A stretch of 64,000 nt of DNA, taken from contig NC_017964.1 of assembly GCF_000219915.2 (NCBI RefSeq), positions 3,162,001 through 3,226,000 of the forward strand. Reading direction: 5' to 3'. Both the position numbers and the translations under genes were made by a program. Shown piece after piece: positions 4,972 through 63,655 of this stretch (positions are counted from its first letter, which is position 1; every line of letters starts with the position of its first letter). Below the pieces are notes generated by a model, which ran no database searches, was not told the DNA's origin, and was given only the letters and a program-made list of their open reading frames with translations. The DNA comes from Advenella kashmirensis WT001 (lineage in GTDB: Bacteria > Pseudomonadota > Gammaproteobacteria > Burkholderiales > Burkholderiaceae_B).

Positions 4972-5408
4972 ATGAAAATCACACATGTGCTGACAGGGGC
5001 CATCGGTTGCCTGCTTGCCGTTGCTGCGCAATCTGCGCTGGCAAAAATCCCGGTGTACGTTTTTGGCAATACGCCCAATGATCCGATAGGCACCTACATC
5101 ACGGCGCAGATCCGCAACCAGATTGCCAACTCGCCCACGCTGACCCTGGTCAACGATATGAATCGGGCAGTTGCCCGCTTGAATCTGCAAAGCGCTGACC
5201 CCACGCGCGAGGCCGATTTACCGCCATCGCGGAAAATGTGGACATCGTCAACGCCGCTTCGCCCATCAATCCCTGGCTCAATATCCAGCAGCACATCCGT
5301 ATCTGCCTGTCAGAATCGAGCGGCAGCTGCGCCACCACCATTGTAAATGACCTGACCTCCGTGGCCCTGCAATATGGCCCGCCCCTGCAGCAAAAGCTGG
5401 GCAGATAG
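4972..5408 (+). CDS. small exported protein of unknown function (frame broken near 5218)
   Basis: Not recognised. The start at 4972 is backed by GGAG a few bases upstream. Residues 1-24 form a signal peptide with cleavage after SALA, so the product is periplasmic. One base is missing in the short T run near 5217-5219. With it restored the frame reads on through TAIAENVDIVNAASP and two cysteines (ICLSESSGSC, a possible disulphide) to a TAG at 5406-5408, for 145 residues. Read literally, the sequence stops at 5346 with a low-complexity tail unlike the first half. It sits alone between recQ (divergent) and the thi genes. Confidence 0.6.
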
Positions 5409-5586
5409 GCGCGACAGTCAGCCAATAGGTTATTGCAAGGCGCTTGCAAACGCGGCACCATGAGTCCAGATGCCGCGCAATTGCGGTGCCAGATCGCAGT
5501 TGTCCTTGCACCAGGCAAGGACAGCGATATACTGTTGCATCGAATCGAACATCACAGGGCCTGCGGGTCCGCAAGCGAATTACACC

Positions 5587-6660
5587 ATGAATATTGGCAT
5601 TGCCGGCGCCGGGCTGTTGGGGCGCATTCTTGCCTTGGTGCTCTCACGCCAGGGGCATCAGGTTTCCGTGTTTGACCCCGCCACGTCTGCACAGGCGCGG
5701 GGGGCCGCCGGCTGGACAGCCGCCGGCATGCTTAGCCCCATTGCCGAACTCGAAAGCGGCGATGCCGACGTATTCGACATGGGCTTGCGCTCCATCGCGC
5801 TGTGGTCTGCCCTGGTTCCCTCACTCAGCATGCCGGTGCAATTTCATATTCGCGGCAGCCTGCTGGTTGCGCATCGCGGCGATGAAGGCGCGGCAACGCG
5901 CCTGACATCGCTGCTGGACGCCAAGGCGCCGCAACATGCGCGCCCGCAAATGCTCACGCGCGATCAATTGCAGTCACTGGAGCCATCGATTCAGGGCCCC
6001 AGCCACGCCTGGATGCTGCAAGGCGAAGGACAGATCCATACGGTCCAGGCGATGCAGGCGCTGGCCGAATCCGCTGACAACACTACCTGGTACTGGGGAA
6101 CCCCAGTGATCAGCCTCAAACCCGGGCAGTTGCAGACGGCACAAGGCGTGCATACGTTCGACTGGGTTTTTGATGTGCGCGGCACCGGTGCCCGTGAACG
6201 GCCGCACGCCAACAGCCATCAACTGAACTGTCGTAATGTGCGTGGCGTACGGGGTGAGATTTTCTGGCTGCAGGCCAGTGGACTGACCCTTGGCCGGCCC
6301 GTGCGTCTGCTGCATCCGCGTTACCGTGTCTACATCGTGCCGCGTGCGCCCGATACCGTGGTAGTGGGCGCCAGCGAAATCGAAAGCGAAGACCGCTCGC
6401 CGGTATCGCTGCGCAGCACAGTGGAATTGCTGACCGCCGCGCACAGTGTGCTGCCCGAGCTGGCCGAAGCACGCCTGATCCACACCGAGGTCAATTTGCG
6501 GCCTGCCCTGCTGGACAATCTGCCGCGCATTGAGAATGAACAGGGCCTGACACGCATCAACGGATTGTTCCGTCATGGCTGGCTGATTGCGCCCGCCGTT
6601 GTGGAAAAGGCCCTACAATCAATATTTGAACCCGATTTCAATCTGATTCAAACGGTATGA
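5587..6660 (+). CDS. thiO: glycine oxidase ThiO (FAD-dependent)
   Basis: A 357-residue FAD-dependent amine oxidase of the DAO family. It oxidises glycine to the imine used in making the thiazole ring of thiamin. Seen: the N-terminal dinucleotide-binding motif GIAGAGLLGR, the FAD-contact stretch RGAAGWTAAGMLSP, and the C-terminal RPALLDNLPRI and HGWLIAPAV segments. I chose the ATG at 5587 because the Rossmann motif begins immediately; the frame is open further upstream (ATG at 5470), but those 39 residues are not conserved in character. The TGA overlaps the thiS start (ATGA), giving a thiO-thiS-thiG operon. No TPP riboswitch is visible upstream. Confidence 0.93.
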   Translation: MNIGIAGAGLLGRILALVLSRQGHQVSVFDPATSAQARGAAGWTAAGMLSPIAELESGDADVFDMGLRSIALWSALVPSLSMPVQFHIRGSLLVAHRGDEGAATRLTSLLDAKAPQHARPQMLTRDQLQSLEPSIQGPSHAWMLQGEGQIHTVQAMQALAESADNTTWYWGTPVISLKPGQLQTAQGVHTFDWVFDVRGTGARERPHANSHQLNCRNVRGVRGEIFWLQASGLTLGRPVRLLHPRYRVYIVPRAPDTVVVGASEIESEDRSPVSLRSTVELLTAAHSVLPELAEARLIHTEVNLRPALLDNLPRIENEQGLTRINGLFRHGWLIAPAVVEKALQSIFEPDFNLIQTV

Positions 6661-10200: not shown

Positions 10201-13010
10201 TCATTCCAGCAAACTGCGCAGGACATATTGCATGATGCCGCCATGACGATAGTAGGCTGCCTCGCTGGGCGTATCGATGCGCACGATCGCGTCGAACTGC
10301 ACACCATCGGCCTGAACCCTTACGGCCGTGGGCGTAATGTCCTGGTTCAACGTCACGATACCGGTGATGTCAAAAGTTTCTTTTCCCGTCAGTCCGAGCG
10401 TTGCGGCATTTTGCCCATCTGGAAATTGCAGTGGCAGCACGCCCATGCCCAGCAAATTCGACCGGTGAATCCGCTCATACGATTCCGCAATCACGGCCCT
10501 CACACCCAGCAATGCGGTCCCTTTTGCCGCCCAGTCGCGCGACGAACCGAGCCGTATTCCTTGCCGGCAAGAATGACCAGGGGAATACCTTTGTCTATAT
10601 AGGATCGCGACGCCTCGAAAATGGTTGTCACCGGTTCATCACTGCGCGTGAAATCCCGCGTGAAACCGCCCTCGGTGCCTGGCGCAAGTTGATTGCGCAG
10701 ACGTACGTTGGCAAACGTGCCGCGGATCATGACTTCATGATTGCCACGCCGCGATCCATAGGAGTTGAAGTCTTTGGGATCCACGCCATGCTCAGTGAGG
10801 TAGGCTGCGGCCGGCGAGGTTTTGGCAATAGAGCCGGCCGGACTGATATGGTCGGTCGTGACCGAATCACCCAGCATAGCCAGCACCCGCGCCCCCTGAA
10901 TATCCGCGACCGGTTCGGGATGGCGCGCCATATTGTCGAAGTACGGCGGTTTGCGCGCATAGGTAGAAGCTTCATCCCAGTCGAACCGCTCGCCTTCGGG
11001 CGTAGACAAAGCACGCCAGCGCTCATCGCCGGCAAAGACATCGGCGTAGCCCGTCGTGTACATGTCGGACATGATGGCCGCATCCACCACTTCCTGTACT
11101 TGCGCGGCCGTTGGCCAAATATCACGCAGGTAAACATCTTGCCCATCGCTGCCCTGTCCCAGCGGCTCGTTAAACAGATCTATGTCCATGGTGCCGGCCA
11201 GGGCATAAGCCACCACCAACGGCGGTGACATCAGATAGTTCATCTTCACTTCAGCATGGATGCGGCCTTCAAAATTGCGGTTGCCCGACAGCACCGACAC
11301 CACAGAGAGATCATGATCCGCGATCGCCTGACTCACTTCAGGAATAAGCGGACCGGAGTTACCGATACACGTTGTGCATCCATACCCCACCAGGTTGAAT
11401 CCCAAGGCATCAAGATAGGGGGTCAAGCCGGCGCGTTCGTAATAGTCGGTCACCACCCGGGAACCGGGAGCAAGACTGGTCTTGACCCAGGGCTTGCGCT
11501 GCAGACCTTTTTCAACCGCCCGCTTGGCCAGCATCGCCGCCGCGATCATGACCGTAGGATTGGACGTGTTGGTACAGGAGGTAATGGCGGCAATCACCAC
11601 CGAGCCATGATCGATATGCCCTTGCGTGCCGTCGCTAAACGTAATGGGAATCGGCGCGCGCGCCCGGCTGTTATCTGTCGGGGCGTATTCAACATGATCG
11701 GTTGGCTGATCCGACGATGAGTTTGGTTCCTCATGGGCAGGTGGATCTGATGCTGGAAAAGACTGGTCTACAACCTTGTCATAACCATGAGGTTTTTGCT
11801 CCGGTTCTCCGATAGACGTAGCAAGTGCCCCCCGAAATGCCGGTTTCGCATCCGACAGCGCAATACGATCCTGCGGACGCATGGGACCGGCGATAGATGG
11901 AACGACCTGCGATAAATCCAGTTCCAGTTTTTCCGAATAGCGTGGTTCGGCTTGCGGATCATGCCACAGCCCTTGCGCCTTGGCGTAAGCTTCGACCAGC
12001 GCAATCTGCTCCTGCGAGCGGCCCGTGAATGCAAGATAACGAAGGGTTTCTGCATCAATGGGGAAAATGGAAATCGTCGAGCCATATTCCGGGCTCATAT
12101 TACCGATGGTCGCCCGGTTGGCCAGAGGTACAGACGCAACACCAGGCCCATAAAACTCAACGAATTTACCAACCACGCGATGCTTGCGCAACATTTCTGT
12201 AATCGTCAACACAAGGTCGGTCGCAGTCGTTCCTTCCGGTAGTGTTCCGGTCAGTTTGAAACCGACCACCCGTGGAATCAGCATGGAAATGGGCTGTCCC
12301 AGCATGGCCGCTTCAGCCTCAATGCCACCCACACCCCACGCAACAACACCCAGGCCGTTAACCATTGGCGTATGAGAGTCAGTTCCGACACAGGTATCCG
12401 GATAGCTACGTTCATGCCATCGTCATCAGCGGTGAAAACTACGCGCGACAAATGTTCCAGATTGACCTGGTGAACAATGCCGGTGCCGGGAGGTACCACC
12501 TTGAAGTCAGCAAATGCCTGCTGTCCCCAGCGAAGAAACTGGTAGCGTTCCAGGTTTCGTTGATATTCTATGTCGACGTTGCGTTCAAACGCATTAGCCT
12601 GTCCGAAAACGTCGACAATCACCGAGTGGTCAATGACCAGTTCTACCGGCGCCAGGGGATTGATCCGCTTGGGGTCGCCGCCCAGGGCGTGCATGGCCTC
12701 GCGCATGGCAGCCAGGTCCACAACCGCAGGCACGCCGGTGAAGTCCTGCAGCACCACGCGAGCCGGGGTAAAGGCAATTTCACGGTCAGGTTGTGCCTGC
12801 GGATCCCAGTCGGCAAGTGCGCGAATGTCTGCAGCCGTAATGTCCTTGCCATTTTCCGTACGCAACAGGTTTTCCAGCAGAATTTTCAGGCCGTAAGGAA
12901 GCGAGTCAACATCAAGCCCCTCCTTCTTTAACGCATCAAGCCGGTAGATTCGATATGATTGATCTCCACTTCGAGCACACTGCGGCGCCAAAACTATCCA
13001 TACTTTTCAT
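10201..13010 (-). CDS. acnA: aconitate hydratase AcnA (frame broken four times)
   Basis: Aconitase A of the citric acid cycle, a [4Fe-4S] enzyme interconverting citrate and isocitrate. Cluster cysteines are seen in [31 protein letters not shown] and a C-terminal swivel domain follow. The start at 13010 is set by AAGGAG at 13019-13024. Reading through needs one added base at about 12981 (T), 12966 (C), 12405 (G) and 10547 (C), plus-strand letters. These restore [35 protein letters not shown] and [16 protein letters not shown], for 937 residues. That exceeds the usual ~890-900 because of a linker insertion of about 50 residues (roughly 11652-11807). Confidence 0.93.
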
Positions 13011-13197
13011 GATGTTTTCTCCTTGATCATAAACTTGCCTGGTCTGCGTCCACATCGCAAATGACTGCACGATTGGGACGCGGCTGCCATTGCCGGATAC
13101 GGACTAACACAAGAGAGGCATCGCGGCGCGAACGATTGGCTCGAGCCTGTCACTATTGCCTGCTGACGACAACTGCGGCAACAAAGCTGACACATGC

Positions 13198-20034: not shown

Positions 20035-20305
20035 ACCATTATTAATTATCACTATCCAAATCATCGATCCACCACCCCTTGCTGCGCGCTATCGTGCATG
20101 CAATACAGAAAATGACGAAACGAATACAGGAAGGACAGGACAAGTCCGTGTCCAAACGCGGATATTTAATGGTACTTCCGGGCACGCGCGCCTATTAGTC
20201 GCCGTCTTCCCAACCTTGATCGACAGAAAACAACAGCTTCGCTTTTATATTGTCATTGCGCAAAGGCGCCCAATATATGAAGATAGCGATAATCAGGAGC
20301 CGCTC

Positions 20306-21196
20306 ATGGACAAAACCCCGCTTATTCATCATGCCCCTGCCCCGCATTGGGTGGGTAACGCTTTTCACGTACGGTCCATGTTCTCCTATGGGCAACGGAA
20401 CATGAATCCCGATCCGTTTTTACTGCTAGATTATGCGCAGCCCCGACATTTTCCGCCCAGCCAGGAACGCCGCGGCGTGGGCGAGCACCCGCATCGCGGC
20501 TTTGAAACCATTACCATCGCCTACAAGGGTGAAGTGGAGCACCGGGACTCTTCGGGCGGCGGTGGCATCATCGCCGCGGGCGACGTCCAGTGGATGACGG
20601 CCGGCGCAGGCATCATGCACGACGAATTCTTTTCCGACGCGTATTCTACAAAAAGGGGGAGATTTCGAAATGGTGCAACTGTGGCTGAACCTGCCGGCGC
20701 GCGACAAAATGACGCCAGCGCGCTACCAGAGCATCACGGCTGACGATATCCCGACGGTCACTCTACCCGATGAGGCAGGTACCGTACGTGTCATTGCCGG
20801 TAAGTACAAAGACCATCAGGGCCGGCGGCCACGTTCACACCAGTCAACTTATGGGATACCAACCTGACGACAGGCAGCACGACCACATTCGAGCTGCCTG
20901 CAAATCATACGGTGATGCTGCTGGTGCGCCATGGCACCGTAGCTGTAAACGACAGCGCCGACGCCGGAGCCAGCCAACTGGTCACATTTGCCCAAGGCGG
21001 CACCACGATCACCATTCAGGCCAAAGAGGCGGCTGCCCTGCTGCTGATGAGTGGCGAACCCATCGCAGAGCCGATAGCCGGGTATGGTCCGTTTGTCATG
21101 AATACCGAAGAACAAATTCGTCAGGCGCTGGCCGACTTCAATGCCGGACAGTTCGGGCGTATCGGGCAGACCCGGAACCGCTCCGCTACCGAATAA
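20306..21196 (+). CDS. pirin-family protein (frame broken twice)
   Basis: A bicupin protein of 296 residues after repair. The start at 20306 follows CAGGAGC. The N-terminal cupin has the pirin signature and metal-binding histidines ([13 protein letters not shown]) and [12 protein letters not shown]. One extra A in the run at 20650-20654 and one missing C near 20822 break the frame. Correcting both joins [20 protein letters not shown] to TFTPVNLWD and on to a TAA at 21194-21196. Pirins bind a metal and some are quercetin dioxygenases; the role here is unknown. It is divergent from the haem operon. Confidence 0.85.
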
Positions 21197-21293
21197 CTGA
21201 CCGACTGCAGGCCCGGCCATAACTGGGCCCGCCGCGAACAAAAACTGGGGCCAACTACTGTCTGGCCGCAGCGCCACAACGGGCGTTACTGGA

Positions 21294-21934: not shown

Positions 21935-23447
21935 CTAGCCTCCTGAATACAGGGCGTCAACCTCACGGTGCGTGGCAGGATGTGGCGCCAAAGCTGATCG
22001 GCCTGGCAACGCGTGAGCCGACGACGCGGACGACAACGGACCGACAGGCTTCATTAGCGAGCCTGTCGCAGCCGCCTGCTGTGGTATCTGCGCGCCCAAC
22101 CCCTGCAACAGCGCCTGGTACTCCGGATTCTGCCGCAGTGTCTGTCGACCAGCCTCAATGAGCGCGTCCACATCCTTGCGATTGACAGTGAACAGCGTGG
22201 GAATGCGCAGCAAATGCCGACGTGGCACCGACAATCCTGCGGGCGCTTCACGCAGACTGACCGGCACAACGTGCAATTGCGCATCGGGCGCCAGCAATCC
22301 CTGCAACTGGGGATTGAGCGATTTTCTTAACGTAGCCCATTGCCTGCCAGTGTCCTGCACCATTTGCATGGTCTGCGTGGTGACCCGGCCCGACGTGCTG
22401 AACATAATCGTATCAAACACATCTGACAACGTAGGCACATTTTCGCTTTTGTCGATATTGACGCTGGGATCGCGCTCGGCATTGATTACTACAAATGCCA
22501 CTTTCCTGACCGTACCCTTGCTGATCTGGCCGCGACGCAATTGACCAATACCGAGCGTGACGCGATCCATCAGGCCGCGCACGCCCAGGTTATCCGACAG
22601 CCTCCATCCACCAAATGGATATAGGGCCGATTTTTGCTATCCAGATAACCCAGCACATCCGAACGATAGGCGCGCATCCGGTAATCGCCCTGCAGCCTGG
22701 ATACCTGCTCGCGTTTTCGGGCGGAATACGCACATTGTCCGGCATAATTTTTCAGCGTCAGCGGCGACAGCACCATTGGCACGGCGGCCGAAGATGCCAC
22801 TGCAAATGACAGTGGCACCTTGCGGATGTCCGCACACATGGTCGCCAACTGATCAGGCGAAAACTCAAAACTCGTGCCCTGGGATAAATCGGTCGCCAGC
22901 ACGATCAGGTCTGCATGCGGGTTGCGATATAAGTCATCGTAGGTTTTGCCCTCATAGAGCATATCCAGTTTCTGGGCCAGCACATGGCCACGGCCGACCG
23001 CAGGCGAGACCGCAGCGGCAAAATTTGCGGACTGAATATGGCGGACACCAGACTCTGCTGGAAATCCTTGTACAGATATTCGTTTTTAAACGCGGGAAAG
23101 GTCTTGCTGCCATTGAGCGCATAATAGGCAGCCACAATGCTGCCTCCCGATACGCCACGCACCACATCAACCTGGCTGAGCAGCGTTTGGGTCTGGCCGT
23201 TCCAGCGGATTTGCGTGTCGGCCAATTCCTTGAGCACCCCATAGCCGAATGCGGCTGCGCGCGCCCCGCCCCCGGAAATGCTGACAATGATAACAAAGGA
23301 AGGATCGGTCCTCTCGGTCAGCCGCGCCGTGTCAACGCCGGTATCAGGGGTACCCGGCGGCAGTGGCGGATTGCGCCATGGCGTAAGCGACGAGCAGGCC
23401 GAAAGCGCCGACAGTAATACGATGAAGACAAGTTTATGAATCCGCAT
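21935..23447 (-). CDS. patatin-like phospholipase lipoprotein (frame broken twice)
   Basis: 504 residues after repair. The N-terminus has a lipoprotein signal: LLSALSACSS, with a lipobox before the cysteine. Then come the oxyanion-hole glycines SISGGGARAAAFGYGVL, the nucleophile motif GVSGGSI (G-x-S-x-G) and, late, the catalytic Asp of the dyad in HLVDGGLSDNLG, which is only readable when one base is added near 22600. A second break lies at about 23010-23040, where SAIFSPQ must join GRGHVLAQKLDMLYEG. It is a membrane-anchored lipid acyl hydrolase or a relative without known substrate. The ynfA-like gene ends 6 bases upstream of it. Confidence 0.85.
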
Positions 23448-24847: not shown

Positions 24848-25753
24848 ATGAATTCGGATTTAATCCTGATCGCTTTACTGGACGGTCTGTCATACGCCGG
24901 CCTGCTCTTTCTGGTGTCGCTCGGGCTCACGCTGATCTTTGGCGTGATGGGCATTCTCAACGTCGCCCACGGCGCATTCTATGCCTATGGCGGCTATGCA
25001 GCTGCAACGCTCATCGCCGTGTATGCGCCAACCACAGAGTCGGCACTGCTGCCCTTGCTCTCGCTGTTTCTGGTGGCCATTATTGTCGGCATCATACTGG
25101 GCTCGGTTGTCGAATTTGTGCTGATACGCAGGACGCATGGCTACGACCCCATTCTGAAACTGCTGCTGACATTCGGCGCCTTTCTGATCTTTGAGGATCT
25201 GCAAAAATTCATCTGGGGCGCGCAGCCCTATACCGCCAGCGAAGTTGTGGGGCGCCTGGGAAATATAGAGATGGGCAACATCACCTATACAACCTACCAA
25301 TTATTGATTATCCCCGGCACCGCCCTCATTGCGTACGTGGTCCTGGTCTATTTTCTCAGGTACACCAGGCTTGGCAAACAGATTGTTGCCATTACCCATA
25401 ACAGCGAAGTGGCCACTGCAATGGGCATCAATGCCAGGCGCATCAGCTATTTCACATTTGTCATCGGCACCATTCTGGGCGTGCTGGGCGGGGCGCTTGC
25501 ATCGCCTACCACTTCGCTGGTTCCCGGCGTGGGCGCCGATATGGTGGTCCTGTCCTTTGCGGTGGTCGCCACCGCCGGGCTGGGGCAGATTACCGGCGCA
25601 CTGATTGCCGCAATACTGATAGGCGTCATACGGTCATTCTCTATCTACCTGGCGCCGGAAGTGGAAGTGGCTGTGCCTTACATCATCATGGTGCTGGTCC
25701 TGATATTCAGGCCCAACGGATTATTCAAAGTAGCACAGGCCAGAACAATATGA
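24848..25753 (+). CDS. livH: branched-chain-type (HAAT) ABC transporter permease LivH
   Basis: A 301-residue inner-membrane permease with about eight helices. FLVSLGLTLIFGVMGILNVAHGAFYAYG is abridged here to its hallmark, GVMGILNVAHGAFY. The C-terminal part has GLGQITGALIAAILIGVI and ends in IFRPNGLF, all typical of LivH. It is the first gene of an eight-gene operon and overlaps livM by four bases. The enclosed dehydrogenases suggest the transported solute is not a plain amino acid. Confidence 0.93.
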   Translation: MNSDLILIALLDGLSYAGLLFLVSLGLTLIFGVMGILNVAHGAFYAYGGYAAATLIAVYAPTTESALLPLLSLFLVAIIVGIILGSVVEFVLIRRTHGYDPILKLLLTFGAFLIFEDLQKFIWGAQPYTASEVVGRLGNIEMGNITYTTYQLLIIPGTALIAYVVLVYFLRYTRLGKQIVAITHNSEVATAMGINARRISYFTFVIGTILGVLGGALASPTTSLVPGVGADMVVLSFAVVATAGLGQITGALIAAILIGVIRSFSIYLAPEVEVAVPYIIMVLVLIFRPNGLFKVAQARTI

Positions 25754-41946: not shown

Positions 41947-44696
41947 TCAGCTCAGCTTACCGTGGCAATGCTTATATTTTTTACCGCTGCCACATGGGCA
42001 CGGGTCATTGCGACCCACTCTGCCCACCATGTTCTTGACGGTGATACCGCCCGCTGACACATCGCCCTGTTCATTGATTTCGGCATTGGCCAGCGCTTCA
42101 TCGTAGTCAGAATGATGAAACTGCATATTGGACACATGAGATTGCGCGGCATCGGCTTCAGCCTCTTCAACCTGTTCCGGTGACTGGATCTGTACGGTCA
42201 TTAGCACGCGCGCGGTTTCATTGCGAATGCGCTCAAGCATGCCGGAGAACAGTTCGAAGGCCTCACGCTTATATTCCTGTTTCGGATCCTTTTGCGCGTA
42301 ACCGCGCAAATGAATACCCTGACGCAGGTGATCCAGCGACGACAAATGTTCACGCCAGAGCGTATCGATGGTTTGCAGCAGGATGGCGCGCTCGAAAGAG
42401 ACCCATTGTTCCTTGCCGACCAGCGCCACTTTGGTTTCGTAGTTCTCTCGAGCCTGTGCCAGCACCGCTTCCACGATATCCTCGTCGCCCATGTTGTCGT
42501 TTTTTTCGAGCATTTCAGTCAAGGGGACCCTAACCTGCCATTCGGCTTCCAGCGCCGTTTGCAGCGCAGGAATATCCCACTGCTCTTCCATGCTTTCTGC
42601 CGGTACATACGTACGCACAAAGTCGGTAATTGCCGCATCACGCAGGTTGGCGACCAGCGGTCCGGAATCGGCCTCTTCCAGCACTTCGTTGCGCTGACCG
42701 TACAGTACTTTGCGCTGGTCATTGGACACATCGTCATACTCAAGCAACTGCTTGCGGATGTCGAAGTTGCGACCTTCCACCTTGCGCTGCGCCGATTCAA
42801 TGGAGCGCGATACCATCTTGGCTTCTATCGGTTCGCCATCGGTGCCCAGGCGGTCCATAATGGCGCGCACACGATCGCCCGCGAAAATGCGCATGAGCGA
42901 ATCATCCAGCGACAGATAAAAGCGAGATGAACCCGGATCGCCCTGGCGACCGGCACGGCCTCGCAATTGGTTGTCGATACGACGCGATTCGTGTCTTTCA
43001 GTACCGATGATGCGCAAGCCACCGGCCTGCTTGACCTGTTCGTTAACCGGCAGCCATTTTTCACGGATAGCGGCAATACGCTCTTCTTTCTGGGCGGGCG
43101 TGAGCGTATCGTCTGCGCGCACCAGGGAAATGGCTTTCTCTATGCTGCCGCCAAGCACGATATCGGTGCCGCGGCCAGCCATGTTGGTCGCAATGGTGAT
43201 TTTGCCCGGTTTGCCCGCTTCGGCAACAATTTCAGCTTCGCGCGCATGCTGCTTGGCGTTGAGTACGTCATGCGGCAGGTTTTCTTTTTTCAACAGCTCG
43301 GACAGCACTTCGGAGTTTTCGATACTTGTGGTACCCACCAGCACCGGCTGATTGCGTTCGTGGCAATCGCGGATATCCTTGATAATAGCGGCGAACTTTT
43401 CCTGATCGTTCTTGAAAATCTGGTCGTTCTGGTCGTTCCTGACCATGGGCAAATTGGTCGGAATAATGACCGTTTCCAGACCATAGATTTCCTGGAATTC
43501 GTAGGCTTCGGTATCGGCCGTACCGGTCATGCCGGCCAGCTTTTTGTACATACGGAAAAAATTCTGGAACGTGATCGAAGCCAGCGTCTGGTTCTCGTTC
43601 TGGATCGCCACGCCTTCCTTGGCTTCCACGGCCTGGTGCAGGCCATCGGACCAGCGGCGCCCCGCCATGAAACGTCCCGTGAATTCATCCACGATCACGA
43701 TTTCGCCATCGTTGACCACATAATGCTGGTCGCGGAAAAACAGATTGTGGGCACGCAGTGCCACCATCAGATGATGCATCAATGTGATATGACGCGGCTC
43801 GTACAGCGACTCGCCCTGTGGCAGCATGCCCAGGCGAGTCAGAATCTCTTCGGCGTGCTCGTGCCCGGCTTCGGACAGGTAAATCTGCTGGGATTTTTCA
43901 TCCACCCAGAAATCGCCTTCCGGTTCCGGTTCCTGCGGCTTGGGCTCGGACGCATGCGCGTGAGCATGGCCGGCACCTGGTTCATCTTGACATACAGTTC
44001 AGTATTGTCATCGGCCTGGCCGGAAATGATCAGCGGCGTACGGGCTTCATCGATCAGGATCGAATCGACCTCATCGACAATGGCGTAGCTCAGTTCGCGC
44101 TGGCGCCGGTCTTCGGCGCGATATTCCATATTGTCGCGCAAATAGTCAAAGCCGAATTCGTTATTGGTACCATAGGTAATATCGGCGCGATAGGCCGCGA
44201 CCTTCTCTGCATTGTCCTGCTCTGGCACCACCACACCCACGGACAGGCCCAGAAAGTTATACAGTCGACCCATTTGCTGCGCATCGCGGCGCGCCAGGTA
44301 GTCGTTGACCGTGACCACGTGCACGCCCTTGCCAGACATGGCATTCAGATAGACCGGCAGTGTACTCATCAGCGTCTTGCCTTCACCCGTACGCATCTCG
44401 GCGATCTTACCGTAATGCAGGGTGATGCCGCCGATCAGCTGTACATCGAAGTGACGCATACCCAGTACCCGACGCGAAGCTTCACGCACAACAGCGAACG
44501 CTTCGGGCAAGATGGCATCCAGATCTCCGTCCTGCTGATAGCGCTCCTTGAATTCCTGGGTTTTCGCGGCCAGCGCTTCATCGGACAGGGCTTCGACGGT
44601 TTTTTCCAGACTATTGATTCTGGTGACCAGTTTGCGATACTGCTTCAGAAGGCGATCGTTACGGCTGCCAACAATTTTTTTGAGTAAAGAAATCAT
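41947..44696 (-). CDS. secA: preprotein translocase ATPase SecA (frame broken near 43968)
   Basis: 916 residues after adding one base near 43968. The motor of the Sec pathway. Seen: Walker [25 protein letters not shown], Walker [44 protein letters not shown], and the C-terminal zinc segment [15 protein letters not shown], which binds SecB. The repaired linker reads [20 protein letters not shown], an Ala-His then Pro-Glu stretch between the nucleotide domain and the cross-linking region. The gene is essential, so the break must be a read error. Confidence 0.95.
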
Positions 44697-49319: not shown

Positions 49320-50548
49320 CTAATTCATAAACCACTCTTTCATGCGGGAAATAATATCTTTTAGCGTTCCATTTTGTTGCTTAATCTTACCACCACGCAA
49401 ACGCTGCACGCGTGCTTCGGTCAACAATCCCATCACCGTTGAAAACCGCGGGTTGCGGACCATGTCGGCAAGACTGCCGCGATAGTCGGGCACGGCAACG
49501 CGCACCGGTTTGAGAAAGACGTCTTCGGCCAGCTCGACAATGCCGGGCATAAGCGCTGTGCCACCCGTCAATACGACGCCAGAGGCAATCAGATCTTCGT
49601 AGCCGGAGTCTCGCACAACCTGCTGCACCATCATGAACAGCTCTTCAATACGCGGTTCGATAACAGCACCCAGGGTCTGCCGCTTGACGCGACGTACATC
49701 GCGATCGCCCAGACCGGGCACTTCGATAAGCTCATCGGGGTTGGCCAGCACCTGCTTGGCAATCCCATAACGCAATTTGATTTCTTCGGCATCGGGTGTC
49801 GGCGTGCGCAGCATGGCTGCGATATCGCTGGTCACCTGATCGCCCGATACCGGCAATACAGTCGTATGACGAATGGCGCCACCGGTAAAAATAGCGATGT
49901 CGGTCGTGCCCGCGCCAATATCGACCAGCACAACACCCAGTTCCTTTTCATCATTGGTCAGGCAGACCATGGACGAGGCCAGCGGCTGCAGAATCAGGTC
50001 CTGCACTTCCAGGCCACAGCGGCGTACACATTTGACAATATTCTGCGCAGCGCTGACCGCGCCAGTCACAATATGCACGCGCACTTCAAGCCGGATGCCG
50101 CTCATGCCTACCGGCTGGCGGATGTCTTCCTGTGAATCGACGATAAATTGCTGGGTCAGTACATGCAGCACCTGGTGATCGGTGGGGATGTTAACTGCTT
50201 GGCAGTCTCAATCACGCGCGCCACGTCGGCTTCCGATACTTCCTTGTCCTTGACCGCGACCATGCCGCTGGAATTGAAGCTGGTAATGTGATTGCCGGCA
50301 ATGCCTGTATATACTTCACGGATTTTGCAATCGGCCATCAGCTCGGCCTCTTCAAGGGCACGCTGAATGGAATTGACCGTGGATTCAATATTGACCACAA
50401 CCCCTTTGCGCATACCCTTGGATTCATGCTGTCCAAGTCCGATTACTTCAAAGCGCCCTTCTTCAGGCAAAGCTTCAGCCACCACTGCCACCACTTTGCT
50501 GGTGCCTATGTCTAAAGCAACGATGAGGTCCTTTAGGTCACGAGTCAT
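49320..50548 (-). CDS. ftsA: cell division protein FtsA (frame broken near 50198)
   Basis: 409 residues after adding one base near 50198, restoring ETAKAVNIPTDHQVLHVLTQ. It is an actin-like ATPase that tethers FtsZ to the membrane. Seen: ALDIGTSKVVAVVAE, the phosphate-2 motif VLVDIGAGTTDIAIF, VLTGGTALMPGI, and the C-terminal amphipathic helix ending RMKEWFMN. It overlaps ftsQ by four bases. Confidence 0.96.
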
Positions 50549-51354: not shown

Positions 51355-52316
51355 TTACAGTCCTGGCTCCGTCACAGGTTTGGTGCGCTGAATCTTGCAA
51401 CTGGCCTGCGCCAGGATCTGCACGCACAAATCGGCATAACTGACGCCTTCAGCCTTGGCGCCCATAGGCACCAGCGAATGCGGCGTCATGCCCGGAGAGG
51501 TATTGACTTCCAGCAGGAAAAAGCGATTGTCATTATCCAGCATCACATCGACTCGCCCCCAGCCTTCACAACCTACGGCGACAAATGCCTGCTCGCAGGT
51601 CTGCCGGATGCTGGCGGCCAGATCCTGAGGCAGGTCCGCCGGACAATGGTATTGTGTCTCGTCCGAGACGTACTTGTGCTCGAAATCGTATTTGCCATCG
51701 GGCGCCACGATTTCGATAATCGGAAACGCCCGTGCCGTATCGCCCTTGCCCAGAATGGCAACAGTCAGTTCGCGCCCGACGACAAATTTTTCGGCCAGCA
51801 GTTCGCTGTCAAACTGGCACACGTCTTCAAAGGCAGCAGACAGATCCTGCGGACCGGTCACTTTACTCAGCCCCAGCGTCGAACCCTCGTGCGGTGCCTT
51901 AAGAATAAAGGGATAGCCCAGCATCTGGCTGGCGCCATCCATATCCTGACGGGTTCGCACCTTGCAATAAGGCGCTGTAGGAATGCCCTGTTCAATCCAG
52001 ATACGCTTGGTCATGATTTTGTCCATGGCCAGCCCGGAAGCCATCACGCCGCTTCCGGTATACGGAATGCGCAGCAGTTCCAGCGCCCCCTGCAGGGAAC
52101 CATCTTCGCCATACCGGCCGTGCAGGGCTATAAAAACGCGATCAAAACCGGCCGCAGCCAGTTCCGCCAGCGAATGCTCGGCAGTATCAAACAGATGGGC
52201 GTCAATGCCTTTGCTGATCAGGCGTCGTATACGCCCTTGCCGGAAACCAGCGACACTGGCCGCTCTGCGGACTGGCCGCCATACAATACACCTACCTTGC
52301 CAAATTCATTGCTCAT
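51355..52316 (-). CDS. ddl: D-alanine-D-alanine ligase Ddl (frame broken near 52221)
   Basis: 320 residues after adding one base near 52221, restoring [18 protein letters not shown]. It joins two D-Ala for peptidoglycan. Seen: [19 protein letters not shown], the serine loop [10 protein letters not shown], the omega-loop Tyr in [13 protein letters not shown], and EVNTSPGMT with the metal-binding residues. The N-terminal motif, normally SAEREVSL, reads SAERPVSL: the Glu that helps fix the first D-Ala is a Pro here. The ATG at 52316 overlaps the murC end by 11 bases. Confidence 0.94.
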
Positions 52317-53721
52317 TGCGCTCTCCCAACTGCCCCGGCACCTTGTTGATGGAGCCGGCACCCATGACGATGACCACATCACCGTCGCGAACAAAGTTGA
52401 TGATGGTCTGCGGCAGTTCGGCCACATCTTCGACAAAAACCGGTTCAACTTTGCCGGCCACGCGCAATGCACGCGACAGCGCCCGGCCATCGGCAGCCAC
52501 AATGGGTTGCTCGCCGGCGGCATACACTTCGCTTAGCAACACCGCATCGGCGCGACTGAGCACATTGACAAAGTCTTCGAAACAATCGCGGGTGCGTGTA
52601 TATCGATGAGGCTGGAAAGCCAGGACGAGCCGGCGTTCGGGCCAGGCGCCGCGCGCCGCCTCAACAGTGGCGGCCATTTCAATGGGATGATGTGCGTAAT
52701 CATCAATCAGCGTGTAGGTACCGCCGCCATGATCCTGCGGCACCGCAAAGTCTCCGGTGTAGGAAAAGCGGCGTCCGACGCCGTTAAAGCCAGCCAGCGC
52801 GCTCACGATATCGTCGTCGGCCAGCTCCAGCTCTGTAGCCACGGCAATGGCGGCTAGCGAGTTCAGCACATTGTGACGGCCGGGCAGATTGAGCACGATA
52901 TCCAGGTCGGGCAGGCGCTTGGCCGGGGTAATCCGCCGCTCAACGGTAAACGCCATGCGCGTTTGCCGGGCCTGCACGTTAACCGCCCGATACATCGCCT
53001 CTTCACCAAACCCATAGGTCACCAGCGGGCGCGAGATAAACGGAATAATGTTGCGAACGTTGCTGTCGTCTACACATACAATGGCGCTGCCGTAAAACGG
53101 CATGCGCTGGGTAAACTCCACAAAGGCGCTTTTCAGGCGTGTCATATCGTGCCCATACGTATCCATATGGTCCGCATCAATATTGGTAATGATGGACATG
53201 ACAGGCAACAGATTCAGGAACGAGGCATCCGATTCGTCAGCCTCGACCACAATATATTCGCCCTGGCCCAGCCGCGCATTGGCGCCGGCCGAATTCAGGC
53301 GCCCGCCGATCACGAAGGTTGGATCCAGGCCGGCAGCGGCCAGCACACTGGCCACCAGGCTGGTGGTCGTGGTTTTGCCGTGCGTGCCGGCAATGGCAAT
53401 GCCGCGTTTAAGGCGCATTAACTCTGCCAGCATGATGGCGCGCGGCACCACGGGAATGCGCTTGGCCCGGGCCGTAAGCACCTCTGGGTTGCTATTGGCC
53501 ACGGCCGTGGATGTAACAATAGCGTCAGCCTCGCCGACATTTTCGGCATGATGGCCGATGAAAATCTGCGCCCCCAACTCTGCCAGGCGACGGGTCACCG
53601 CCGACTCCTGCAGATCCGAGCCGCTGACTTTGTATCCGAGATTCACCAGAACTTCGGCAATACCGCTCATACCGGAGCCGCCGATACCGACAAAGTGAAT
53701 GTGTCTAATCCGATGTTTCAT
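52306..53721 (-). CDS. murC: UDP-N-acetylmuramate-L-alanine ligase MurC
   Basis: A 471-residue cytoplasmic ligase adding L-Ala to UDP-MurNAc. Unbroken. Seen: [17 protein letters not shown], the P-loop [21 protein letters not shown], the DYAHHP motif and [16 protein letters not shown]. The ATG at 53721 overlaps the murG TGA (ATGA); the frame open to 53748 adds only charged residues. Confidence 0.97.
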
Positions 53722-54801
53722 GTTTTCCCTGCGCTCGCGCGCTCGCAAATATCTGCAATGGTCTGTGTGGCCTGCGTCCTGGCGCAGGCTCTGGCAGCCA
53801 CTGCAGTCTGCATCAATTGATCACGAGTACGACTTTGTATCCATTCGGCCAGCCAGGCAGCGGTAAATTCGCGCTGGGGCTGCGCCCAGGCCGCATTGCG
53901 GCTGGTCAGCCATGCCGCATTTGCCGTCTGGTGATCATCAATGGCATGCGGCAATGGCACAAACAGCGCGGCTACCCCGACCGCCGCCACTTCGGCCACC
54001 GTCATGGCGCCGGCACGGCAGATAATCAGATCGGCCGACATCATGGCCGTGACCATATCGTCAATGAAAGGCAGGCATTCTGCGCTGACATCCGCCTGTT
54101 TATAGGTATCCTGCAGGCTGGCAATGTGCTGTTCTCCGGCCTGATGCATGATTTGCGGACGCTGCTCTGGTGCAATCAGCGCCAAGGCGGCAGGCACCAC
54201 AGTGTTCAGGGCCTGCGCCCCCAGACTGCCGCCCACCACCAGGATACGCAAGACACCGTCGCGCGCCCCATAGCGCACACCGGTTCCGGCGTATTGGCCA
54301 ATTCATTGCGCACAGGATTGCCCACCATCTGCCCGCCCGGCAGCACGTCTGGAAAACCCGTCAATACAAAAGCCGCCATTTTAGCAAGCCAGCGGTTGGC
54401 TGTACCGGCGACGGCATTCTGTTCATGAATTACCAGTGGAATACCGACCAGTTTCGCCATCAAACCGCCAGGCACGGCCACATAGCCGCCCATGCCCAGT
54501 ACGACCGCAGGCCGGCACTGCTTGAGCGCGCGTCGCGCCTGCAGGCACGCTTTGCCCAGCATGAACGGCAACTTGAGCAGCGCCACCGGCCCCTTGCCAC
54601 GCAGACCGGCAAAGCGCAAAGGCAGCAATTCAATTGCCGCAGCCGGCACCAGGCGACCTTCCATTTTGTCCGGATTACCCAGCCATATAACGTTCCAGCC
54701 CCGCGCACGCATTTGGGCGGCCACGGCCAGACCGGGCATAATATGCCCGCCGGTCCCCCCAGCCATCACCAGCAACGTACGTGAATCGGAACGAGCGCCA
54801 G

Positions 54802-54805
<4 letters not shown>
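53718..54805 (-). CDS. murG: lipid II synthase MurG (frame broken near 54280)
   Basis: 362 residues after adding one base near 54280, which joins NELANTPEP to [21 protein letters not shown] peripheral membrane glycosyltransferase that adds GlcNAc to lipid I. Seen: the first G-loop [29 protein letters not shown], and then [12 protein letters not shown] and [16 protein letters not shown] in the donor domain. ATGA-type overlaps exist at both ends. Confidence 0.95.
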
Positions 54806-57543
<2,738 letters not shown>

Positions 57544-57547
<4 letters not shown>

Positions 57548-58712
57548 CGCAGTTTAAGTGTTGCCAGTCCGAGCAGAACCAGCATCATCGTAATAATCCA
57601 GAACCGCACCACAACCTGGGTTTCTTTCCAGCCACCCACTTCAAAATGATGATGCAGCGGCGCCATGCGCAAAATTCGCCTGCCGGTACCGGTCTTTTTC
57701 TTTGTGTATTTGAACCAGAACACCTGGATCATGACCGACAGCGTTTCAGCCACAAATACGCCACCCATGATAAAAAGCACGATTTCCTGGCGCACGATCA
57801 CGGCGATTGTGCCCAGCATGCCGCCCAGCGCCAGCGCGCCCACGTCGCCCATGAACACCTGGGCCGGGTAGGCGTTGAACCATAGAAAGGCCAGGCCGGC
57901 GCCGCCCAGTGCTGCGCACAGCACCAGCACCTCGGAGGCGCCTGGAATATACGGAAACAGCAGGTATTTCGAATAATCCACGCGGCCAACCACGTAGGCA
58001 AAAATGCCCAGCGCGCTACCAACCATGACGGTTGCATAATGGCCAGGCCATCGAGTCCGTCAGTCAGATTCACGGCGTTACTGGCCCCGACAATAACCAT
58101 CCAGGTCAATATTACAAAACCGAATACACCCAGCGGATAGCTCACGCTTTTGAAAAAAGGTACGATCAGGTCAGCACGGGAAGGCAGCGGCATGGTAAAG
58201 CCGCTACTGATCCAGGCCCACATCAGGCGAAAAATGTCGGCATTGGCAGGCGCCGAGACGGCAAACGTCAGGTATACAGAGGCGATCAGGCCAATAATGG
58301 CCTGCCACATGAATTTTTCGCGCGAGGACATGCCTTCCGGATTGCGATGGACTACCTTGCGGTAATCGTCAACCCAGCCGATGGCACCAAAGCCGAAGGT
58401 TACCAGCAGTACAACCCAGACGAAACGGTTGCTCAGGTCTGCCCATAATAATGTGGTCACACCGATGGCAATCAGAATCAGCGCACCGCCCATAGTCGGC
58501 GTACCGTTTTTGACCAGATGCGTCTCCGGCCCGTAACTGCGCACAGCCTGGCCAATTTTAAGTTCGGTCAGCTTGCGAATGACGTGCGGTCCGGCCATCA
58601 GGCCGATAAACAGTGCCGTCGCGCATGCAAACATGGCCCGCAACGTAATGTATTCAAAAACACTCAGGACGGAAAACGTTGGCGAGAGCCAGCGGGTCAG
58701 TTCATATAGCAT
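57544..58712 (-). CDS. mraY: phospho-MurNAc-pentapeptide transferase MraY (frame broken near 58033)
   Basis: 389 residues after adding one base near 58033, which restores [17 protein letters not shown] ten-helix membrane enzyme forming lipid I. Seen: [39 protein letters not shown], and the family signature in [18 protein letters not shown]. It overlaps murD (ATGA) and the end of murEF (11 bases). Confidence 0.96.
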
Positions 58713-61500
58713 GACCGTCCTCGTTCTTTTCTGACCAGGACAACAAGTCCTGCACTACCCGTTCCATCCGCATCGATCTAGAGCCCTTTACCAATATGCT
58801 TGCGGGCTGTCTTGCAACGACCCTTTCTGCGATTTCATGTATATCTGTCATATGTTCTGCCGTCGGGCCACCCGCCCGCGCGGTCAGCGCGCTGGCATTT
58901 CCATATGTAAACACATATGAAATGCCTTTTTTACGGGCGTATTGTCCCACTTCCTCATGCATTTGCGGCCCGTTCTCGCCCACTTCGGCCATATCGCCCA
59001 GAACCAGCACGGTCGGCGCAGGCAGCGCAGCCAGAACGTCGATTGCTGCAATTACAGAGTCCGGATTCGCATTATACGAGTCATCGACCAGCGTGAGGCC
59101 GCCGGACAGGGTAAGGCTGCGCATTCGTCCCTTGACCGGGGCAAACGCCTGCAGACCGTCACGGATGTCTGTCAGACTAATACCCGCGGCATGGGCGCAA
59201 GCGGCAGCGGCCAGACTATTGCGGACATTATGGGTGCCGGCGATGGCCAGGCGCACATCAATCTGCCCGACCGGGGTTTTCATGACAAACGAAACGCCAA
59301 GTGCACCGGGAACCACCGACTCGGCGTAGAAATCGGCATCCGCCGTCTGCCCGAAAGTCAGCACCCGGCGTTCGCCGGCCAGCTCCCGCCACAGCTCGGT
59401 GTAAGGCTCATCAGCGGGAAAAATTGCGGTCCCGTCGGCTGGCAGTGATAAAAATACCTGTCCATTTTCAATGGCCACGGCCTGGACTGTGTGCATGAAT
59501 TCCTGATGCTCGCGCTGGGCATTGGTTACCACGGCGATACTGGGCTCACACAATGCAGCCAGTTGCTCGATTTCACCGGGATGGTTCATGCCCAGTTCCA
59601 GCACCGCCATTTGATGCTCGGAGGTCAATTTAAGCAGGCTGCGCGGCACACCCCATTGGTTATTCAAATTGCCTTCAGTCGCGAAGCGGTGTTCAACGCC
59701 GACGCCAGCGGCCAGCACGCAGGAAATCATTTCTTTGGTCGTGGTTTTGCCATTGCTGCCGGTGACGGCTATCAGCGGCAGCCTATACTGGCGACGCCAG
59801 GCATGGCCCATGCTCATCAAGGCAAGCGTAGTATCGGCAACCAGAATTTGCGGCAGATCCACCGCCGGATCGCGACGACTGACCAGTGCAGCGGCAGCGC
59901 CGGCCTGCCGGGCAGCACCGATAAAATCGTGACCATCATGCAGCTCGCCGCGAATGGCAATAAACAAGCCGTTTTCCGGAACATGCCGGGAATCGGTTGA
60001 AATCTCGGGCCGATCGCGCAGCAGCAAGCCCAGCCGCGACCATTCCAGATCATCGAAAGGCTGGCGTTCGTGGTTGATTTCCTGGTAGGTCTCGTGCCCC
60101 TTTCCCGCCACCAGCACCACGTCTGCTGCAGCCGCCTTCAGGATCATTTCGATGATCGCGCAACCGCGATCGGGCTCGGCGCGAGCGCCTTGCGGCATTC
60201 CCCTTAGAATATCGTTCAGAATATCGCCAGGCACTTCAGTGCGCGGATTATCGCTGGTCACCAGCACTTGATCGGCCAGACGCGCGGCGATCTGCCCCAT
60301 GATCGGCCGCTTGGACTTATCCCGATCGCCCCCGCAGCCGAAAATGCAGATCAACTTACCGCCACGGGCTGTCGCAACCGGCTGCAAGGCCTGCAGTGCG
60401 CGCTCCAGCGAATCGGGGGTATGAGAGTAATCGACCACAATCAATGGGCGCTTGTGACCCGCGTCGGCGCCTGCCGGCGTGACGGTCTGCAACCGTCCCG
60501 GTACTGGCGTGAGCAACGATACCAGCCCGGCGCTTTGGCGCAAATGAATGCCCAGGACATCCAGCACGGCAACAACAAGCAGTATATTGGCAATGGAATG
60601 CTCACCCAGCAGCCTTGTGGTCACTTGCGCATCGCCGCCGGGCGAGCGCAGCGTAAACACCAGGCCATAATCGCGAAACTCATGTTCGACTGCCGTGAAC
60701 GTCGCCTGCGGCGCGGCCTTCAGCGAATAGCCCGCCCTGGACTGCGCCGTGGTTTTCGCAAAAATGCGTTCGCCGGCCTCATCGTCCATATTCACAATGG
60801 CATGACTGAGCCCCGGCCACACAAACAAAGCGGCCTTGGCCGCCTCATAGCGTGCCATGCTCTGATGATAATCCAGATGATCCAGCGTCAGATTGGTAAA
60901 TGCAGCTACTTTGACCTGCAGCCCGTCCATGCGGCCCTGCTCGATACCGATGGAAGAGGCTTCCATGGCGACATATTCAATGCCGGCATCGCGCATTTGG
61001 GCAATTTGCCGGTGCAGCGTGAGCACGTCGGGCGTGGTCAGAGAGCCGCCCAGATTAGTCCCGTCTGGCATCACCGTTCCCAGTGTGCCAATGGTCGCGC
61101 AGGATTTACCGACAGCGTTCAGCGCTTCGGCAATCCAGGTAACGCAAGAGGTTTTCCCGTTGGTGCCTGTGACGGCAATGACCGAGACGGCTGCCGAAGG
61201 ATGGCCATACCAGCTATCAGCAATATCACCCAGATAGGCGCGCAGGCCGACCACCGGCAGTACCGGCACGGCATGTCCGGCATCCAGCAATGTCTGGCCC
61301 TGCTCCGTGTTCGCAACATCGGCGATCACTGCCGCAGCGCCTTTTTTGATGGCATCGGGAATATACGCAAGGCCGTTAACGACGCTACCTGTACAAGCAA
61401 CAAAGACATCCCCTTTCTGGATGTCTCTGGAGTCTAGCCGCAAATCCGCTTTATCCGTGACATGGCCGGCAAGCCATTGTGCTATCTCTCGGCTATTCAT
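58702..61500 (-). CDS. murE: MurE-MurF bifunctional ligase (one unbroken 932-residue protein)
   Basis: Two Mur ligases in one frame. Residues 1 to about 495 are MurE, adding meso-diaminopimelate: P-loop TGTNGKTS at 111-118, [12 protein letters not shown], and the DAP-recognition DNPR at 417-420. From about 498 follows MurF, adding D-Ala-D-Ala: [20 protein letters not shown]-loop [10 protein letters not shown] at 580-589, and [11 protein letters not shown]. The MurF half lacks some 20 usual N-terminal residues and runs straight on from MurE ([17 protein letters not shown]), with no linker or ribosome site at the joint (about 60010). A murEF fusion is known in Bordetella, so this is real. Confidence 0.96.
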
Positions 61501-63315
61501 CCCTGACTCCTCTTGGGTACGGTATTTCGCGCCTCAAGAGGAGCTGGTTCGATCGGCGCATCGGGTGGGACGGCCAGATATTTCAGCGTATCTTCAATAA
61601 TGGAAGCCGCCACCGGCCCGGCAATCACGCTGCCGTAGTATCCGCCCTTGCGCGGCTGATCAAGCGTGACGGCCACGATAATCCGTGGCTTGGAAATAGG
61701 CGCCATGGCCACGAATGAGCCTCTATAGTCTTTGCGACTATAACGACCATCAATAATTTTACGAGCGGTGCCGCTCTTGCCGCCGATCCGGTACCCCATG
61801 ACCTTGCCCTGAATCTTTGTCCCTTCAGAGCCGGCCGCATCTTCCAGCATCTGACGCACGGCGCGCGCAGTTTCCGGTTTATAAATCTGGATGCTCGTCG
61901 GATTGGCCCGATTTTTTACCAGCGACAGTGAAATCATATCGCCGTTGCGGGCCAGCGCCGTGTAGGCGTGCGCCATTTGCAGCAACGAGACGGACAGGCC
62001 GTAACCATATGCCATGGTCGCCCGTTCAATGGGCGCCAGCGCTCCCACGGACGTACACGTCCGGAAGCGGCACCGGGAAAGCCCATATTGGGCGCCTGCC
62101 CAAAGCCCAGCGCATTAAATACCGTCCACATTTGATCTGAACGCAAACGCTCGGAGATCATGGTCATGCCGATATTGCTTGAGCGACGGATGATGCCGGC
62201 CACGTCCAGCACGCCGTTGCGCGTACTCACGTCTGTAATGGTTGCGCCTGGTAACGATAGGTGCCGTGTCCGGTATTGAATTTGGTTTTTGTGGTTACCA
62301 CCCCGGCATCAAGCGCCAGCGCAGCCACCAACGGCTTCACGATAGAGCCGGGTTCGAACGTATCGGTAATGGCCCGATTGCGCAAGGCAGCACCCCGCCG
62401 TTCCTGTGGATTGTTCGGATTGTATGTGGGCAGGCTGACCATTGAAAGGATTTCACCATTCTGCGCGTCCACAACCACTGCCGCGCCAGAAGACGCCTCA
62501 TGATCGGTAATGGCTTTTTGCAGGGCCTTGGAAACCAGAAACTGCACACGGCTGTCAACGGTCAACTCCAGATTCTGTCCGTCGCGGGCGGGCTCCACTT
62601 CCTGCATATCGCCAATGATACGACCCAGGCGATCACGCAGCACTTTGCGCAGTCCGGGCTGACCCGATAGCTGCTTGTTAAACTCCAACTCCACCCCCTC
62701 AATACCGCGATCTTCGATATTGGTAAAGCCCACGATGTGTGCCATCAATGAACCTTGCGGGTAGGAGCGACGGGTTTCAGACAGCAGTCCGATTCCGGGA
62801 ATTTTCATTTTCTGAATTTCAGTCGCCGGCTCCATCGCCACCTGACGGCGCAGGTAAACAAACGTCTTGTCCGAACTGCCCAGGCGTGTCGTCAAATCTT
62901 TAAGCGACATGTCCAGCAACTTCGCCAGGCGCACCAGCTGTTCAGGCGTAGCACTTCGAGTCTCTTCAGGCGAAGCCCAGACTGCTTTTGCCGGAATACT
63001 GGTTGCCAGAAACTCGCCATTGCGGTCCAGCACACGCCCGCGATTGGCCGGCAGCACCAGCGTACGTTCATAACGCTTGCCGCCTTCGGCCTGCAGAAAA
63101 TCGTTGTTCATCGTCTGCAGATAAAGCGATTTGGCAATGACGGTAGTAAATCCCAGGCTGATCACGACAAACAGCAAACGCGCACGCCACTTGGGTATCT
63201 GCACATGCAGCACCGGGCTGCTGCTGTAGTAGTGATGCTGGGACGGACGCTTACCTGGCTGGTAACCGCCGCGTGATGTTTTTTTTGACTTGAGCAAATC
63301 CAGATTCAGTTTCAT
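61497..63315 (-). CDS. ftsI: septal peptidoglycan transpeptidase FtsI / PBP3 (frame broken twice)
   Basis: 606 residues after adding one base near 62247 and one near 62031, restoring YRYQGATITDVSTRN and RWRPIERATMAYGYG. A class B penicillin-binding protein. One N-terminal helix (ARLLFVVISLGFTTVIAKSL), then the dimerisation region with NRGRVLDRNG. Catalytic motifs: S-x-x-K in FEPGSIVKPL (Ser 324), S-x-N in RRSSNIG, and K-S-G in RIGGKSGTAR. It overlaps murEF by four bases and ftsL by four. Confidence 0.96.
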
Positions 63316-63655
63316 TGCGCTCCCCTTGGCGCCGGTGCGGCAGCAGATTTTTCCGTGGCAGTTGCCGCTCGGGCAGTGCCTGCATTCATTTCTGATTCTT
63401 TGATGAAAACGGTTTGATTAATCTGCGGGGTCTGCATATTGAGCTTCTCGGACATCACCCGATCTATATTGGCGCTGGTGGTCAGTTGCGCACGCTCTAG
63501 CAGCAGGTGACGCCAGTCAACCTCCAGCTCACGCTCGGCGGCCTGAGCCCGACCAATATCGATATAAAGTAAACGTTGCTGATAGCGGCTGGACACCAGG
63601 GAAATGCACTGTACATGAAAAAACCGATCAGAAATATCAGTGCGAGGCGGGCCAC
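63312..63655 (-). CDS. ftsL: cell division protein FtsL (frame broken near 63605)
   Basis: 114 residues after adding one base near 63605, which joins the membrane helix ([15 protein letters not shown]) to [20 protein letters not shown]. The GTG at 63655 is used as the start because it includes the whole helix; an ATG inside it would lose half. The rest is a coiled-coil-prone region ([19 protein letters not shown]) and an Ala-rich tail. It links FtsB/FtsQ to FtsWI. It overlaps rsmH upstream. Confidence 0.85.

Follow-up and report, generated by a model that had tools for sequence, protein, structure and literature searches.

We analysed the frame breaks in a stretch of 64,000 nt from the chromosome of the soil bacterium Advenella (Tetrathiobacter) kashmirensis WT001 (CP003555, positions 3162001-3226000; the window), together with other parts of the same genome. 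Our results indicate, with a probability of about 0.96, that these breaks are consensus errors of an assembly made with the Ion Torrent Personal Genome Machine (PGM), and not biology. This is a known class of instrument error that a published evolutionary claim has mistaken for biology: Ghosh et al. 2013 read the breaks of WT001 as biological and counted 578 pseudogenes of 4452 (PMC3669393). Our reading rests on the place, direction, spectrum and rate of the breaks and on their lack of selection, all of them seen in the comparisons below, and on the platform given in the published description of the genome.

That description reports a chromosome of 4,365,995 and a plasmid of 57,884 nucleotides (CP003555 and CP003556), assembled with MIRA from Ion PGM reads (316 chip, 37x), with scaffolds built from SOLiD reads and gaps covered by capillary reads (PMC3669393). 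As closest relatives we used A. incenata DSM 23814 and Advenella sp. FME57, each of which shows ca. 90.6% identity to WT001 across the window. Strain W13003, also labelled A. kashmirensis, is only ca. 81% identical across the window, in agreement with a published average nucleotide identity of 78.7% (PMC3907720); by the usual limits, W13003 and WT001 are different species.

Frame breaks in the window

A first-pass annotation, made from the letters of the window, had listed 29 single-base breaks in 18 genes, nearly all of them lost bases. We found all 29 sites, at most 18 bases from where they had been placed, and alignment with close relatives showed that each differs in the direction claimed: 28 have lost a base, the one at 20652 has gained a base, and the sites do fall in 18 genes. 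To count breaks on equal terms, we aligned 48 ORFs from A. incenata, including a few antisense ones, with the window and with four further genomes of the genus, although fewer ORFs align in strains S44 and W13003 and in a third genome, which we take to be A. mimigardefordensis. The window contains 30 sustained breaks (28 one-base losses, one one-base gain and one two-base gain), compared with one in FME57, five in S44 and two each in W13003 and the presumed A. mimigardefordensis.

Of the listed sites, 27 were sustained breaks in this test; the other two, 12966 and 12981, were seen in the run comparison and in the alignment, with one more base in all four relatives that align there. For the site at 52220 the tested ORF was antisense, and the sense gene corresponds to an intact ORF of 360 aa in A. 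incenata. A further one-base loss, absent from the first list, lies near 26647, close to the 3' end of an ABC transporter permease gene. When 26 sites were placed on runs of identical bases, five fell on single bases and 21 in runs of 2-4, of which 19 were G or C runs. The earlier description of the affected runs as two to eight bases long was too wide: no run exceeds four in A. incenata. Elsewhere in the window (1-64000), we observed 26 other small run-length differences from A. incenata off the listed sites, that at 26647 included.

Breaks at similar rates across the chromosome

For larger samples we excluded ORFs whose third-position divergence was less than 1.7 times the mean of positions 1-2 (likely antisense; this filter was not applied in the 48-ORF test), ORFs with less than 60% aligned, breaks at most 24 bases from an ORF end, and clusters of indels within 45 bases that add up to a multiple of three. 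Only ORFs open in the reference were used, so that the breaks of the reference itself go uncounted. Rates were calculated from every ORF aligned in each genome, and paired comparisons from the 223 ORFs (or 213 with FME57 as reference) aligned in both.

Three regions of WT001, with 477 kb of coding sequence, contained 239 breaks, which interrupted 176 of 438 genes. The rates were alike in the 404 kb around and including the window (162 breaks in 290 aligned genes, 0.515 per kb), near base 1 (41 in 79 genes, 0.468 per kb) and at 2.10-2.22 Mb (36 in 69 genes, 0.481 per kb); we therefore discarded a chromosomal gradient of coverage as the driver. Against the same A. incenata ORFs, FME57 showed 20 breaks in 18 of 224 genes (0.083 per kb) and, in the reverse control, A. 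incenata showed 10 breaks in 215 genes on FME57 ORFs (0.042 per kb). In the paired set, WT001 had 90 broken genes and 121 breaks, including 103 one-base losses, whereas FME57 had 17, 19 and seven, respectively; when FME57 served as reference, breaks were found in 87 of 213 WT001 genes versus eight in A. incenata. One-base losses amounted to 0.35-0.42 per kb of coding sequence in WT001, and their excess over FME57 is very large (132 in 314.7 kb versus 7 in 240.2 kb; p ~2e-24). The number of breaks in the region of the window is, then, far above chance. Scaled to ca. 3.7 Mb of coding sequence, these rates would give roughly 1,800 breaks genome-wide, natural differences included; this extrapolated figure exceeds both the 578 genes in print (PMC3669393) and the 925 frameshifts listed for WT001 in a survey of frameshift-rich genomes (PMC6403173).

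Losses are specific to G/C runs

We compared run lengths in a strict set, with runs common to A. incenata and FME57 whose 3-base flanks are the same across the three genomes, and in a loose set with relaxed flanks, which includes natural indels. Among 66,803 strict coding runs, WT001 showed 47 losses and three gains; 36 of the losses were in G/C runs of 2-4 (32 in runs of 2-3) and nine on single bases. The same test yielded one loss, two gains and one larger change in FME57, and none in A. incenata. The loose set, of 194,016 runs, comprised 269 losses and 41 gains. Here the frequency of G/C losses rose with run length (55/79,564, 52/23,865, 52/4,031, 9/492 and 5/68 for lengths 1 to 5), while A/T runs were nearly spared (14/14,136 for AA/TT and 3/3,975 for AAA/TTT); since G/C seldom forms long runs, most losses nevertheless lie in short ones. 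In coding runs of 2-4, losses were found in 88/24,990 of G/C versus 5/15,994 of A/T (odds 11, p 1e-13), and the G/C runs had 88 losses versus a single gain. Intergenic G/C runs of 2-4 are few, and their loss rate (2/813 strict, 11/1856 loose) does not differ from that of coding runs (36/8932 and 88/24,990).

Slippage after loss of mismatch repair is expected to hit long runs of any base. We rejected this candidate: none of the 218 strict coding runs of at least five bases (197 A/T and 21 G/C) had lost a base, and A/T runs of 2-4 were hardly hit, alongside the 5/68 of loose G/C runs of five.

The first-pass annotation had attributed the breaks to homopolymer undercalls of a flow-type sequencer. 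The guess of a flow-type instrument is borne out by the published methods (Ion PGM, 37x, MIRA). Ordinary undercalling of flow signals, increasing with run length, agrees with the direction of the changes and with the climb of the loose G/C losses up to 5/68 at length five, and it overlaps with our own reading in that both invoke the PGM. However, it is too general, since the losses are G/C-specific: A/T runs of 2-4 are hit 11-fold less, and those of 5-8 lose a base in 13/640 cases in the loose set, natural indels included, and in 0/197 in strict coding runs. It also leaves aside a strong effect of a 5' G that is independent of run length. We thus consider it unlikely as the main mechanism; the indel class described below fits better.

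The context effect is pronounced. A G sits 5' of the C-run in 48 of the 52 CC/GG losses (odds ratio 11, p 4e-10) and in 29 of the 36 strict G/C losses, and a T after the C-run is also favoured. A search of the open-licence literature found no report of such a G-CC context for the PGM. A pyrimidine run with a 5' G is a candidate deletion hotspot of Y-family (DinB/UmuC-type) polymerases; real one-base deletions made by such an enzyme would share the context seen here, and on the WT001 plasmid a Y-family polymerase gene is open and accompanied by umuD. Yet a living cell is not expected to bear simultaneous breaks in rpoB, in gyrB and in genes for the cell wall, and the plasmid, which would face the same enzyme, is the least-hit part that we have seen. 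We find this explanation hardly credible, and just as far-fetched the variant in which the losses are real and the culture tolerates broken essential genes, for example through efficient frameshift suppression.

Breaks bear no trace of selection

Under the published "genome implosion", pseudogenization is real, recent and genome-wide and was started by a loss of DNA repair; this reading makes predictions on which genes should break. We ordered the 223 genes by how far FME57 and A. incenata diverge in them and divided them into quartiles of 60.1, 64.5, 60.3 and 56.8 kb, beginning with the most conserved. In that order, WT001 has 30, 22, 27 and 24 one-base losses (p 0.59), so that constrained genes are not spared. 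The breaks of the FME57 control track divergence in the same order (1, 3, 3 and 12; p 0.0007), as expected of real changes, with the caveat that defining the quartiles by this very divergence favours such an order in FME57. Also, the ratio of divergence at codon positions 1+2 to that at position 3 is 0.127 both in the 89 broken and in the 134 intact genes, and selection seems never to have acted on the breaks of WT001.

Several interrupted genes are hard to reconcile with real decay in a free-living autotroph, such as rpoB (4312569-4316643) and gyrB (3295-5705), both whole in nine of nine congeners, as well as ftsI, mraY, murD, murG, ftsA and secA. The repair genes mutS (2970666-2973239) and mutL (1431572-1433265) are also interrupted in the deposited chromosome and whole in nine of nine congeners, which would suit an implosion, though the interruptions are of the same disputed type. 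Also in its favour, the authors report a re-inspection of reads and a coding density of 85% (PMC3669393). In-frame stops are little raised (19 of 223 genes in WT001 versus 15 in FME57) and codon constraint is unrelaxed in broken genes, although a very recent onset would likewise produce few stops and unrelaxed constraint. Together with the absence of losses in the 218 strict coding runs of at least five bases and the sparing of A/T runs of 2-4, the flat quartiles make real pseudogenization very improbable.

The first-pass annotation had also preferred sequencing error to decay, arguing from essentiality alone. Its conclusion is upheld, and it is now supported by the conservation quartiles and codon constraint, which put the error reading to the test, and by the PGM platform.

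Consensus error as the most probable explanation

The PGM produces high-frequency indels (HFIs), single-base indels present in a large share of the reads, at ca. 1 per 1000-2000 bases, the commonest types being A/T insertions or C/G deletions (PMC3623719). Although only 29% of all HFIs lie in homopolymers, C/G deletions dominate among the strand-asymmetric ones, 82% of them in homopolymers of 2-3; HFIs are mostly non-repeating between runs, and they cause frame-shifts in assemblies (PMC3623719). In WT001, a large share of PGM reads would drop one base at certain G/C runs, favouring CC or CCC with a 5' G, or the reverse complement. Where such reads formed the majority, the 37x consensus would lose the base, and the losses would strike all genes blindly, so that about four in ten genes would appear frameshifted. 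The real WT001 chromosome would have these genes intact.

A number of observations weigh against this explanation. The authors of the genome re-examined each such site in the reads and judged error very unlikely (PMC3669393); this inspection probably did not expose the errors because HFI errors occur in many reads of a run. PGM errors overall are more often gains than losses (PMC3623719), and A/T insertions are common among HFIs and few in WT001, where gains are outnumbered by losses (3 versus 47 strict coding, 41 versus 269 loose); in addition, the rpoB break and one of the two mutS breaks are one-base gains. The slight excess of in-frame stops in the paired set recurs with FME57 as reference (14/213 in WT001 versus 9/213 in A. 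incenata), and stops occur in 12/89 broken versus 7/134 intact genes, with nine and six in FME57 for the same genes. Counted per 20 kb, the losses show over-dispersion (variance/mean 1.96, a raw value that ignores alignable length). Lastly, the authors count 0 pseudogenes on the plasmid (PMC3669393), and among the plasmid genes for which a DNA relative was available (ca. 10 kb) we found no clean one-base break, only two larger differences, both non-triplet and both in comparison with the most distant relatives.

By our reckoning, the chromosomal rate would predict ca. 3 breaks in these 10 kb of plasmid genes; the comparison is suggestive only. Higher coverage of the plasmid would explain its sparing, as a conjecture. 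None of these objections restores the case for real decay, since a mutator is expected to strike the plasmid as well. A VirB4-type ORF of 508 aa on the plasmid (6918-9298) overlaps an ORF of 310 aa in another frame; the latter has no family match, and both may be one split gene despite the published count of zero. The umuD and Y-family polymerase genes, at 17353-19169 of the plasmid, have no frame break and are ca. 90% identical to genes of the A. mimigardefordensis plasmid 24p.

Broken genes of the window

The interrupted genes, with the family assignments that support their names, are the following.

63312..63655 (bounds approximate), minus strand: ftsL, cell division (TIGR02209 on the A. 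incenata ortholog); one-base loss near 63605
61497..63315, minus strand: ftsI-type penicillin-binding protein (best families PBP2/FtsI, below cut-offs); two one-base losses, near 62031 and 62247
57544..58712, minus strand: mraY (TIGR00445); one-base loss near 58033
56019..57547, minus strand: murD (TIGR01087); four one-base losses, at 56193-56204, 56709-56716, 56840 and 57344
53718..54805, minus strand: murG (TIGR01133); one-base loss near 54280
51355..52306 (start approximate), minus strand: D-alanine--D-alanine ligase in the ddlB position (family match); one-base loss near 52221
49320..50548, minus strand: ftsA (TIGR01174 on the window piece); one-base loss near 50198
41947..44696, minus strand: secA (NF009538, TIGR00963); one-base loss near 43953-43968
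40220..41701 (start approximate), plus strand: mgtE-type magnesium transporter; two one-base losses, at 40416 and 41206-41211
39193..40200 (bounds approximate), plus strand: inositol monophosphatase family; one-base loss near 40108-40115
37185..39166, minus strand: MnmC-like / FAD-dependent oxidoreductase; one-base loss near 37793-37799
34829..37025, minus strand: glycosidase, alpha-xylosidase-like (below the curated cut-off); two one-base losses, at 35227 and 35268-35274
31503..32806 (start approximate), plus strand: ABC transporter substrate-binding protein; one-base loss near 31512-31529
28068..29548 (start approximate), plus strand: aldehyde dehydrogenase family; one-base loss near 28721
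25750..26685 (end approximate), plus strand: ABC transporter permease; one-base loss near 26647, unlisted at first
21935..23447, minus strand: patatin-like phospholipase (description-based label); two one-base losses, at 22600 and 23020-23026
20243..21222 (start approximate), plus strand: pirin family; one-base gain near 20647-20652 and one-base loss near 20819
10215..13047 (bounds approximate), minus strand: acnA, aconitate hydratase; four one-base losses, at 10547, 12405, 12966 and 12981
4972..5409 (end approximate), plus strand: gene of 145 aa without family match; one-base loss near 5211-5218

Eight of them (ftsL, the ftsI-type gene, mraY, murD, murG, ddl, ftsA and secA) function in cell wall synthesis, division or secretion, and most of these are required for life in a walled bacterium. 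Within the 48-ORF test, there was no break in the neighbouring murC (family match) nor in the genes that we take, by their position, to be ftsW and murE-murF. In a protein search with the A. incenata MurD, no intact copy from the same species was among the matches listed (best 120 of 7764 hits); of the four best hits compared, the best was 86-94% identical to the WT001 pieces. The block of ABC transporter and aldehyde dehydrogenase genes (24848-32806) aligns in A. incenata and FME57, does not align in S44 and W13003, and does so in part in the presumed A. mimigardefordensis.

Consequences and comparison with known systems

The breaks are the main evidence for WT001 as a "pathogen in the making" with a collapsing genome. 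If they are errors, the implosion account loses its basis, about four in ten gene models of WT001 are wrong, and counts of pseudogenes, inferences of gene loss and metabolic models cannot safely be built on the WT001 reference. The warning of the first-pass annotation, that calling these genes pseudogenes would be a mistake, applies in fact to the whole published paper (PMC3669393). Among the open-licence papers examined, we found no printed refutation of the implosion claim, and PMC6403173 was the only one to touch on the frameshifts of WT001. If the G-CC context holds in other PGM assemblies, it would provide a simple signature to flag such genomes.

The pseudogenes of Ghosh et al. 2013 and the breaks analysed here come from the same genome, are of the same type and include interrupted repair and essential genes, although the share of broken genes is ca. 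three times larger here (176/438 versus 578/4452). The survey of frameshift-rich genomes likewise suspects sequence error in many of its frameshifted genes; it differs in that, in the parts of the text available, WT001 itself is not treated as a test case and the implosion paper is not discussed (PMC6403173). HFIs have been described in reads, whereas the breaks of WT001 are known here from the finished consensus, and the context of a G 5' of the C-run comes from the WT001 counts and is absent from the available description of HFIs (PMC3623719). Nevertheless, the WT001 data also come from the PGM, the losses are likewise C/G deletions in short runs, mostly G/C runs of 2-4, and the rates are alike, with 0.47-0.52 breaks per coding kb in WT001, of which one-base losses make up 0.35-0.42.

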